NCBI RefSeq assembly: GCF_012910785.2
Contig: NZ_WTVH02000009.1
Location: forward strand, 558,001 to 622,000
DNA: 64,000 nt
Reading direction: 5' to 3'
Source of the DNA: Aromatoleum buckelii
GTDB lineage: Bacteria; Pseudomonadota; Gammaproteobacteria; Burkholderiales; Rhodocyclaceae
Shown here piece by piece: positions 16,015 to 18,453 of the stretch. Below the pieces are notes generated by a model, which had not been told where the DNA came from, did not search any database, and saw only the letters and a program-made list of their open reading frames with translations. A program made the position numbers and the translations under genes. Position 1 is the first letter of the stretch; each line of letters begins with the position of its first letter.

Positions 16015-16128
16015 GGGAACCTGCAGGTGCTGGCTCCCGGCTGCGGCCCGGCGGAAAGAGTGCTTTGGTGCGTTGCAGCAGAATGCTAGTCTTCAATGCA
16101 CGGAATAACGCATTGGAGCGAAAACGGT

Positions 16129-18453
16129 ATGAGCGAAGCTGACCTGAAGAGGTTTTTCCTCGAGCAGGTACGCCTGTTCGAGAGTTTCCCCGCGGGCAAG
16201 GTCGAGGAGATCGTCGCCAGATCCCGCATGGCGACTTTCGAGGGCAACGAAGCGATCCTCGAAACCGGTGACGAGGGCCGCTATATCGGAGTGGTGGTCA
16301 GTGGCCACGCCGAGATCTCGATCACCGACAACACCGGCACGCGATCGGTGATCAGCGAGCTCGGCGCGGGCGATGTGTTCGGCGTGATGTCGCTGCTCAC
16401 CGGCGATCGCATCATTGCCGACGTCATCGCCGGCAACCGCTGCTTCGTGCTCATGATCCCGCGGGAAGTCTTCGAAGCCTGCATCCTGACCAATCCGAAG
16501 GCTGTTGCCTACCTCTCGCGCCTGCTGGCCGAACGGAGCCGGGCGATGTCGGTGGATCTCGCGACCGCCCAGAGCCGGGCCATCGCCAGATCGGATGATC
16601 CGTATGCGCTGTCGCTCGGTACCAGCACGCCGGGCAAGGTCCTGGTGCTCAACGTCGGAATCAGCCAGATTCATTTCGGCATCTACGACACCCGGGATCT
16701 CGGTTCCGACATCCACGGCATCATCGACAACATCGACGAGGACATTGCCCGCATCAGCGTCGCAGTCGGTCCGCATGTCCGCAACATGGAGTGCGCGCGG
16801 TTTCCGCTGTCCGAGCTGTTCGCGGTAATGCAGGCGGCCACCGGATTGCTCGGCGATGCGTTCGCCTTTCATCCGCAGGAGGTCAGCGCCGTTGGCCATC
16901 GCGTGGTGCATGGCGGGAGCAGGTTTTCCAGTGCAGCCGTCATCACGCCGGCGGTCATCGCCGACATCGAGGCGCTCTCGGTATTCGCCCCGCTGCACAA
17001 CCCGGTAAACGTCCAGGGCATCCGGGAGGCAATGAGGCAACTGCCCGGGGTGCCGCATGTCGCAGTGTTCGACACCGCTTTCCACCAGACTCTGCCGCCC
17101 TACGCGTATCTGTACGGGTTGCCCTACGAGCTGTACAAGCAGGGCGGCATTCGCCGCTACGGGTTCCACGGCACCTCGCACCGCTACGTGTCGCTGAAGG
17201 CGGCCGAAGTGCTCAGGCGTCCGCTGGGCGAACTGGAGATCGTGTCCTGCCATCTCGGGATCGGCGCCTCGCTGTGTGCGATCGACCACGGCCGCTCGGT
17301 CGACACCACGATGGGGATGACGCCTGCCGACGGCCTGATCATGCCAAGTCGCTCCGGCAGCGTCGATCCGGCGGTGATGATCCATCTGTTGCAGAACTGC
17401 GGGATGTCGCCGGAGCAGCTCTCGAATCTGATCAACACCGAGAGCGGCATGAAAGGCATTTCCGGCATCTCCGGCGATATCCACGAGATCGAGGCTGCCG
17501 CCAACGAAGGACATCATCGCGCGCTGCTTGCGCACAAGGCGTTCTGCTATCAGGTGCGCAAGAACATCGGCGCCTGCGTCGCGGCGATGGGGGGCATCGA
17601 TGTGCTGACCTTCACCGGCGACGTCGGCGAAACCAGTGCCGCCGTGCGCAGCCTGGCCTGCCAGGGCCTGGGTTACATGGGCATTCGGCTCGACGAGGAA
17701 AAGAACCGCAACCTCGGCAAGGTCAATTCCTGCAGCGTCATCTCGGCTGATGATTCACCGGTCACCATCCTTGTTATCGCCAATGACGACGAGCGTCTGG
17801 TGGCCTGGGAAACCCTGCGCGCGATCGAGCGCAATGACCTGACGGTGGCGATGAAGGAAGGCCATCCCGAGGCGCCGATCCCGATCGAGGTCTCGGCCCA
17901 CCACGTGCACCTGTCGCAAGCCGACGTAGACAAACTGTTCGGGCCCGGGCACCAGCTGACGCCGGAACACGAGCTTTCCCAGCCGGGCCAGTTCGCCTGC
18001 AGCGAAAAGGTTCACCTGGTCGGTCCCAAAGGGCGGATCGCCAACGTCCGCGTTCTCGGACCCACGCGCAAGGAAACCCAGGTGGAGATCGCCATGACCG
18101 AGCAGTTCAAGGTCGGCATCCAGCCTCCGATCCGCCAGTCCGGCGACCTCGCCAATACTCCCGGCGTGACTCTCGAAGGCCCGTACGGCAGCACGACGCT
18201 CGAGCGCGGCGTGATCTGCGCACAGCGGCATATCCACATGGCTCCCGAGGACGCGCTGCGCTTTCGCGTGCGCGACAACTACGTCGTGCGCGTACGTGTG
18301 GGCGGTGACCGCGAAATGATCTTCGGCGATGTCGTGGTGCGGGTGAATCCCGCCTATCGCCTGGCGATGCACATCGATACCGACGAGGGCAACGCGGCAA
18401 ATATCCGGACCGGCATGATCGGCTACATCGAGGAGATCCAGAGCCGGCACTAG
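16129..18453 (+). CDS. Fusion protein: cyclic-nucleotide-binding-like domain + acetate kinase + PduL-type phosphotransacylase
   Basis: The 774-aa protein joins three modules. Residues 1-150 resemble a CNB/Crp-type sensor (GRYIGVVVSGHAEIS; GDVFGVMSLL). Residues about 175-580 are acetate/propionate kinase: LNVGISQ (phosphate loop), GHRVVHGG (Arg), FAPLHNP (His), VFDTAFHQT (Asp), RYGFHGTSH, MPSRSGSVDP (Arg) and FTGDVGETSA (Glu). The key catalytic residues of AckA are therefore kept, although GNG is GIG and GEN is GET. Residues about 585-774 are PduL-like, with HHVHLS, QPGQFACSE, VRVLGPTRKETQVE, RQSGDL and RHIHMAP. Together they could convert acyl-CoA to acyl phosphate and then to acid plus ATP on one chain. 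The cyclic-nucleotide cassette lacks the canonical Glu and Arg. The ATG at 16129 has GGAG upstream. Confidence 0.9.
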   Translation: MSEADLKRFFLEQVRLFESFPAGKVEEIVARSRMATFEGNEAILETGDEGRYIGVVVSGHAEISITDNTGTRSVISELGAGDVFGVMSLLTGDRIIADVIAGNRCFVLMIPREVFEACILTNPKAVAYLSRLLAERSRAMSVDLATAQSRAIARSDDPYALSLGTSTPGKVLVLNVGISQIHFGIYDTRDLGSDIHGIIDNIDEDIARISVAVGPHVRNMECARFPLSELFAVMQAATGLLGDAFAFHPQEVSAVGHRVVHGGSRFSSAAVITPAVIADIEALSVFAPLHNPVNVQGIREAMRQLPGVPHVAVFDTAFHQTLPPYAYLYGLPYELYKQGGIRRYGFHGTSHRYVSLKAAEVLRRPLGELEIVSCHLGIGASLCAIDHGRSVDTTMGMTPADGLIMPSRSGSVDPAVMIHLLQNCGMSPEQLSNLINTESGMKGISGISGDIHEIEAAANEGHHRALLAHKAFCYQVRKNIGACVAAMGGIDVLTFTGDVGETSAAVRSLACQGLGYMGIRLDEEKNRNLGKVNSCSVISADDSPVTILVIANDDERLVAWETLRAIERNDLTVAMKEGHPEAPIPIEVSAHHVHLSQADVDKLFGPGHQLTPEHELSQPGQFACSEKVHLVGPKGRIANVRVLGPTRKETQVEIAMTEQFKVGIQPPIRQSGDLANTPGVTLEGPYGSTTLERGVICAQRHIHMAPEDALRFRVRDNYVVRVRVGGDREMIFGDVVVRVNPAYRLAMHIDTDEGNAANIRTGMIGYIEEIQSRH

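Follow-up and report, generated by a model that had tools for sequence, protein, structure and literature searches.

Replaced ATP-loop residues in the acetate-kinase-like domain of a CNB-AckA-PduL fusion protein from Rhodocyclales

Background

Class II Pta is a phosphotransacylase that carries extra N-terminal domains, one of them from another enzyme fold. Acetate kinase (AckA; EC 2.7.2.1; PF00871) is represented by the structures of the Methanosarcina thermophila enzyme (MtACK; 1g99/1tuy), and the phosphotransacylase PduL (PF06130) by the structure 5cuo. The acetate kinase of Entamoeba histolytica (EhACK) is described, in passages of PMC5517563 and PMC4390882, as the only acetate kinase that depends on pyrophosphate (PPi). 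Here we analyse a gene of Aromatoleum buckelii that joins an AckA-like and a PduL domain to a cyclic-nucleotide-binding (CNB) domain in one polypeptide of 774 amino acids (aa). It occupies positions 16129..18453, on the plus strand, of a 64,000-nucleotide stretch (contig NZ_WTVH02000009.1, positions 558,001 to 622,000), hereafter called the window, from whose first letter all coordinates are counted. In this protein and its close relatives the acyl side of the AckA-like domain is kept while ten near-invariant positions in the ATP loops carry other residues, and we tentatively read the domain as a pseudoenzyme module that may regulate PduL. We found no title or abstract on the CNB-AckA-PduL architecture in the openly licensed PubMed Central literature, and the passages of PMC4784909 and PMC4207490 available to us contain no description of it.

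Results and discussion

One open frame with three domains

The open reading frame (ORF) extends from the ATG at 16129 to a stop codon ending at 18453 with 0 internal stops; this start matches the MSE beginning of the homologues, and another in-frame ATG is present upstream at 16096. Three Pfam domains follow one another along the plus strand, all of them above their curated cut-offs: a CNB domain (PF00027; aa 36-121, 16234..16491; E = 2.7e-17, 63 bits against 27.5), an acetate-kinase-like domain (PF00871; aa 170-559, 16636..17805; E = 1.9e-125, 419 bits against 22) and a PduL phosphotransacylase (PTAC) domain that was also aligned to 5cuo (PF06130; aa 585-759, 17881..18405; E = 8.6e-77, 257.3 bits against 25). 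The NCBIfam models TIGR00016 (401 bits, cut-off 293.4) and NF011652 (262.6 bits, cut-off 209) are passed as well. An earlier sequence-only reading, made without database searches, had proposed the in-frame union of these three modules in one gene, and the profile searches that it suggested bear this out; the motifs it named (GIS, GET, HHVH, RHIHM and QPGQFACSE) are likewise present as stated.

An assembly artefact is not the explanation, because 13 further Rhodocyclales sequences carry the identical domain order in one frame. A pseudogene or a sequencing error was ruled out by the open frame in 14 sequences and by ratios of nonsynonymous to synonymous divergence (Ka/Ks) below 1. The assembly of the window genome comprises 4.16 Mb and is 99.38% complete. 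In an AlphaFold model (25 sequences) the PduL part is poor, with 10-residue blocks mostly below 70, and the listed structure matches of the model cover aa 3-137 and 168-570, the PduL fold lying outside both.

Replacement of the ATP loops

AckA residues are numbered here as in MtACK. As a reference we used 59 columns conserved at 97% or more across 88 AckAs (85 stand-alone proteins and three two-domain fusions), and a column was considered replaced when no more than a tenth of the sequences in a group had the canonical residue. The Rhodocyclales group comprises 14 sequences, in which L006, the same as L087, was counted once and the near-identical L106 and L107 were both counted; one sequence (L008) stops at a contig end inside PduL, and L197 was excluded from the conserved-column and residue-retention tables. 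The named records with close full-length relatives are metagenome-assembled genomes (MAGs) of Azonexaceae, Zoogloea, Rhodocyclales and a beta-proteobacterium, and since Azonexaceae and Zoogloea belong to Rhodocyclales, we refer to the clade by that name.

Ten of the 59 columns are replaced across the 14 sequences (S10, S12, K14, N211, G239, T240, R285, G331, T382 and E384). All of them fall among the 23 ATP-loop columns, and none among the 36 columns elsewhere (Fisher p = 1.8e-5, a descriptive value). In the window protein the changes are S10I, S12Q and K14H in the PHOSPHATE1 loop (aa 175-182, 16651..16674), N211I in PHOSPHATE2 (aa 378, 17260..17262), G239P and T240S in LOOP3 (aa 406-407, 17344..17349), R285H in LOOP4 (aa 452, 17482..17484; role taken from passages of PMC4390882), G331D in the ADENOSINE motif (aa 498, 17620..17622), and T382N together with E384D, a metal ligand (aa 552 and 554, 17782..17790). 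The replaced columns sit in loops assigned to nucleotide or metal binding in passages of PMC4390882 or PMC3475010, or else beside E384. Five of the substitutions (S12Q, K14H, G331D, T382N and E384D) are identical in all 14 sequences, so that Q180, H182, D498, N552 and D554 of the window protein are invariant. The eight ATP-loop residues taken as the mark of an ordinary acetate kinase (S10, S12, K14, N211, G239, R285, G331 and E384) are thus all replaced in 14/14. Passages of PMC4390882 report that single changes at N211, G239 or G331 lower the activity of MtACK 6- to 200-fold; in the window protein all three are changed together, along with others.

The acyl side presents a different picture. 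The acyl pocket (V93, L122, F179 and P232) and residues R91, H123, D148, H180 and R241 are kept in 14/14, and the residues taken as the mark of acyl binding and transfer, which are these same ones apart from H123, are consequently all present. Other loop residues, for instance N7, G9, G210, G212 and G333, are kept too. The earlier statement that the catalytic residues of AckA are retained therefore holds for the acyl and transfer residues but fails for the ATP loops: the GIS change had been recognised, whereas nine further near-invariant replacements (S12Q, K14H, N211I, G239P, T240S, R285H, G331D, T382N and E384D) had been missed. The GET change that it pointed out (N335T) is uninformative, since the 11 stand-alone AckAs from these genomes all have His at position 335.

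The PduL and CNB domains

The PduL residues H592, H594, R647, E653, S671, H701, H703 and H748 are intact in the window protein (alignment to 5cuo and residue tables) and in the 14 Rhodocyclales sequences, with L008 unsure near its cut end. The metal ligands and the phosphate-contacting Arg103 and Ser127, whose roles are given in passages of PMC4784909, are accordingly all in place. No shell-protein Pfam match that would point to a bacterial microcompartment locus was obtained in the nine neighbouring ORFs of the window, to which this search was confined within the genome.

The phosphate-binding-cassette region of the CNB domain (aa 84-98, 16378..16422) has Val86 and Ile95 at what we take to be the positions of the cassette Glu and Arg, with Arg94 one residue before the latter. 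Both anchor residues are absent, just as the earlier reading had claimed. A motif scan of the first 200 residues found the cassette Arg in its usual position in none of the 33 fusions with the motif, and the Glu in 21 of them; no motif was detected in L111, L174, L196, L197 or L199. L111, missed owing to an open frame that extends further at the N-terminus, is also without the cassette Arg. Twelve of the 14 Rhodocyclales sequences have Val in place of the Glu; L110, L111 and the relatives retain it. The Arg is thus absent across the family seen here, and loss of the Glu took place within Rhodocyclales. The signal to which the CNB domain responds is probably neither cAMP nor cGMP.

Selection on the domains

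Per-domain Ka/Ks was calculated for 12 of the 14 Rhodocyclales fusions, with medians of 0.265 for CNB, 0.208 for AckA and 0.114 for PduL, values for which the Ks estimates (NG86) are rough at these distances. The largest pairwise values were 0.564 for the fused AckA and 0.796 for CNB. In a matched comparison of 11 genomes the stand-alone AckAs had a median Ka/Ks of 0.398, and Ka was lower for the fused than for the stand-alone AckA in 55/55 genome-matched pairs. The low ratio and the lower Ka indicate that the fused AckA domain is under purifying selection and not decaying; it is maintained, and evolves more slowly than the stand-alone enzyme.

Other AckA and phosphotransacylase genes

Family searches in 11 Rhodocyclales fusion genomes showed, in 11/11, a second AckA whose residues are canonical except for N335H, and its coordinates put a PTA_PTB match next to it in every one of them; in the window genome the adjoining gene encodes a MaoC-PTA_PTB protein. 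Many other matches to PF01515, in frames of 760-900 aa, are presumably malic enzymes. Searches with the fusion protein itself revealed further AckA matches in G801 (at the same contig places as G028), G803 and G804. In two genomes, G706 (the carrier of L112) and G798, PF01515 gave no match and the fusions were the only AckAs at the cut-offs used; the fusion may for that reason be their whole route from acyl-CoA to ATP.

Possible functions of the fusion protein

The explanation that we favour, with a probability of roughly 0.45, is that a working PduL phosphotransacylase has been combined with a repurposed, nucleotide-blind acetate-kinase pseudoenzyme module that regulates it together with CNB. 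The PduL domain would interconvert acyl-CoA plus inorganic phosphate (Pi) and acyl phosphate plus CoA. The AckA-like module would bind ATP or ADP poorly or not at all and make no ATP; most likely it would bind acyl phosphate or a carboxylate and, along with the CNB domain, set the activity of PduL. The ATP-linked step would be carried out by the canonical pair of AckA and PTA_PTB elsewhere in the genome. Class II Pta, whose N-terminal half is regulatory, would offer a parallel for such control of PduL. In favour of this explanation are the confinement of the ten replacements to the ATP loops, the unchanged acyl side, the purifying selection, the intact PduL residues, the second AckA beside PTA_PTB, the position of the Rhodocyclales branch among canonical-loop fusions and the split seen in Nitrospirota.

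Several observations weigh against this explanation. It is from the fusion alone that we infer the regulation of PduL by the AckA-like domain, and the loop boundaries were drawn after several of the residues had been viewed, which is why the Fisher value is descriptive. One draft Zoogloea MAG (G802) has the fusion only, with no second AckA seen. Thirteen of the 23 conserved ATP-loop columns are retained in Rhodocyclales, and from the 12 Salmonella AckA residues listed as nucleotide-binding in passages of PMC3475010 the equivalents of R91, H123, H180, G210, G212 and R241 are kept in 14/14 and that of D283 in 12/14, the window protein included; the nucleotide site is thus altered rather than gone. 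Passages of PMC4390882 report that N211A and G331A of MtACK retain about a tenth of the activity and describe R285 as important, not essential, and position 211 is Ser in two of ten otherwise canonical fusions. Moreover, the invariance of the new polar residues Q180, H182, D498 and N552 suggests that the old nucleotide site binds something, and with the transfer residues and an Asp384 able to hold a metal still in place, the domain could catalyse a reaction with another partner.

Such a partner could be PPi, in which case the AckA-like domain would be an EhACK-like phosphotransferase interconverting acyl phosphate plus Pi and carboxylate plus PPi, and the complete fusion, through its PduL domain, would interconvert acyl-CoA and PPi. 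EhACK, too, differs from ATP-type acetate kinases at N211, G239 and G331 (passages of PMC5517563 and PMC4390882), the very positions that are replaced here while the transfer residues stay, and the five substituted residues are invariant in 14/14. However, the residues chosen differ, being I, P and D here and T, S and Q in EhACK, and S10, S12 and K14, lost here, are hallmark residues highly conserved in prokaryotic and eukaryotic acetate kinases (both points from passages of PMC4390882); furthermore, EhACK-like changes made in other acetate kinases gave no PPi use, as stated in passages of PMC5517563. We consider a non-nucleotide partner unlikely on balance. Somewhat less likely again is the fuller proposal of a nucleotide-free acyl-CoA converter, composed of PduL and an AckA domain using Pi/PPi and governed by a CNB domain that senses a ligand other than a cyclic nucleotide. 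If true, bacteria would have evolved, without connection to the Entamoeba enzyme, an acetate kinase of the pyrophosphate type that is fused to its transacylase.

The ten replacements common to 14/14 sequences speak against an ordinary, if slow, ATP/ADP acetate kinase to which acyl phosphate would be channelled for the production of ATP, and so do the Asp at G331, a contact of the alpha- and beta-phosphates in MtACK (passages of PMC4390882), and the separate canonical AckA of the 11 genomes searched by family; we regard such a kinase as improbable. Channelling from acyl-CoA to ATP, as proposed by the sequence-only reading, is accordingly not borne out for the window protein, but for L112 and other relatives whose loops are canonical it is plausible. 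An acyl phosphatase, which would turn the fusion into a Pi-dependent acyl-CoA deacylase freeing CoA, would fit the retention of acyl-phosphate-side residues beside replaced ATP loops. It nevertheless seems quite improbable, as there is no specific sign of a hydrolytic site, the reaction would be wasteful unless gated, and the passages of the cited papers offer no precedent. Regulation of PduL hence ranks first, followed by catalysis with another partner, an ordinary kinase and finally a phosphatase.

The fusion would be a natural case of an acetate kinase with changes confined to the ATP side, in a lineage where a second, canonical pair is for the most part retained. It would directly test the way in which an ASKHA kinase turns nucleotide-blind or switches to another phosphoryl partner; according to passages of PMC5517563, mutagenesis of acetate kinases of the ATP and PPi types has not decided this question.

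Distribution and origin of the fusion

The cut-offs (E = 1e-60 to 1e-115) were chosen to reduce the number of stand-alone AckAs and may therefore have missed weaker fusions. Full three-domain relatives, with the source genome included in each count, occur in 4/61 near relatives, in 8/399 genomes of the order and in 2/398 genomes of the phylum, Pseudomonadota, the other one of these being G706 (57% identity), which belongs to another class and is the only carrier among 289 genomes of that class. Matches were also found in 8/198 Nitrospirota genomes, five of them with two copies, and one single copy (L174) begins at a contig end without CNB. Desulfobacterota, the phylum of a Desulfobulbaceae record (Thermodesulfobacteriota at NCBI), has matches in 8/297 genomes: five with three domains, one whose PduL lies in a different frame, one AckA-PduL and one truncated. 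In L195 from this phylum, CNB-AckA and PduL are in two different frames, which may be a natural split or a frameshift. The phylum of an Acidobacteria record has matches in 2/277 genomes, one of them three-domain. The architecture search proposed earlier thus recovers the CNB-AckA-PduL order in several phyla, and the fusion is real and recurrent.

In the ten fusions from Desulfobacterota, G706 and the acidobacterial phylum, 0/59 conserved AckA columns are replaced, with variation in single sequences. A quick tree with midpoint root, from which half of the other stand-alone sequences (those with an even locus number) were omitted, as was L197 on account of its short length, places the Rhodocyclales clade on a branch of 0.61 inside the canonical-loop fusions (support of the enclosing group 97). 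This nesting makes the ATP-loop change look derived. A stand-alone Nitrospirota AckA, L015, is also inside the fusion group (support 80), possibly through loss of its flanking domains; given this placement, the support of 80 and the midpoint root, the tree does no more than suggest that the fusion arose once.

A plasmid search returned 88 records, each with less than 80% of the query covered. Four of them (H1-H4) have single-piece matches from AckA into PduL, and three of the four are annotated as acetate/propionate family kinase, the fourth record being unannotated; this label may mislead for such fusion proteins. H1 (= L200), on the Polaromonas plasmid pPNAP02 (5998-7779), is an AckA-PduL fusion; fabI and a DUF3141 gene flank it, and ppk2 is close by. 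The two-domain fusions L113, L114 and L137, where no CNB was found, form a separate clade in the quick tree. In Caldalkalibacillus (L136, at the place of L011), AckA and PduL are adjacent separate ORFs, possibly an unfused arrangement, and the same genome has a second PduL match (L142).

Two-copy genomes of Nitrospirota

In 5/5 two-copy genomes, one copy has an altered AckA and the other an altered PduL (L135/L138, L168/L175, L169/L176, L173/L177 and L172/L178). L135, L168, L169, L172 and L173 keep the PduL set intact and show G9R, D283Y and a replaced R285 in AckA, together with N211H in four of the five. Their replacements affect 4/23 ATP-loop columns and 1/36 elsewhere (p = 0.07), a weaker clustering than in Rhodocyclales. 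Conversely, L138, L175, L176, L177 and L178 keep the conserved nucleotide-loop columns except T382, and their PduL is altered: three copies have R103K, L177 has S127A and other changes, and L178 lacks five of its six metal ligands. Every PduL homologue of the set in PMC4784909 has Arg103, as stated in its passages; still, R103K is a mild change. The pattern fits two activities divided between copies, and in Nitrospirota the nucleotide site was changed separately from Rhodocyclales, in one of the two paralogues. If true, this would be a parallel split of two activities between paralogues.

Gene neighbourhood

The neighbours of the fusion gene in the window are clpX-like, lon-like, tRNA-Val, ferric-reductase-like, Cu/Zn superoxide dismutase, DUF937, DUF3617 and Suv3-like helicase genes. 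BLASTP of the flanking ORFs in 20 stretches (L006 and L160 being on the same contig) detected no neighbour conserved clade-wide. Neighbours are shared locally: between the window and L153 of the same genus, among L147, L155, L156 and L010, which have a common block at varying distance, and between L148 and L149, from two genera with several ORFs in common. Scans for promoters and terminators found none.

Comparison with known systems

The window protein resembles AckA in fold, acyl pocket and the residues R91, H123, D148, H180 and R241; unlike AckA, it has the conserved residues of PHOSPHATE1, PHOSPHATE2, LOOP3, LOOP4 and ADENOSINE replaced and is fused at both ends. Equivalents of His48, His50, Arg103, Glu109, Ser127, His157, His159 and His204 of PduL are all present, but in contrast to 5cuo the PduL unit is here the C-terminal domain of a fusion. 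Class II Pta shares the general plan of a phosphotransacylase with N-terminal additions, although the domains are unrelated in both halves. With EhACK (28% identity in the structural alignment to 4h0o) the protein shares the departure from the ATP type at N211, G239 and G331, whereas its altered PHOSPHATE1 (S10I, S12Q and K14H) sets it apart, as judged by the acetate kinase conservation stated in passages of PMC4390882. The two-domain AckA-PduL fusions (L113, L114 and L137; L200) likewise join AckA to PduL in one frame, but the three that were checked differ from the window protein in having canonical residues at the AckA positions compared, but for one N335H.
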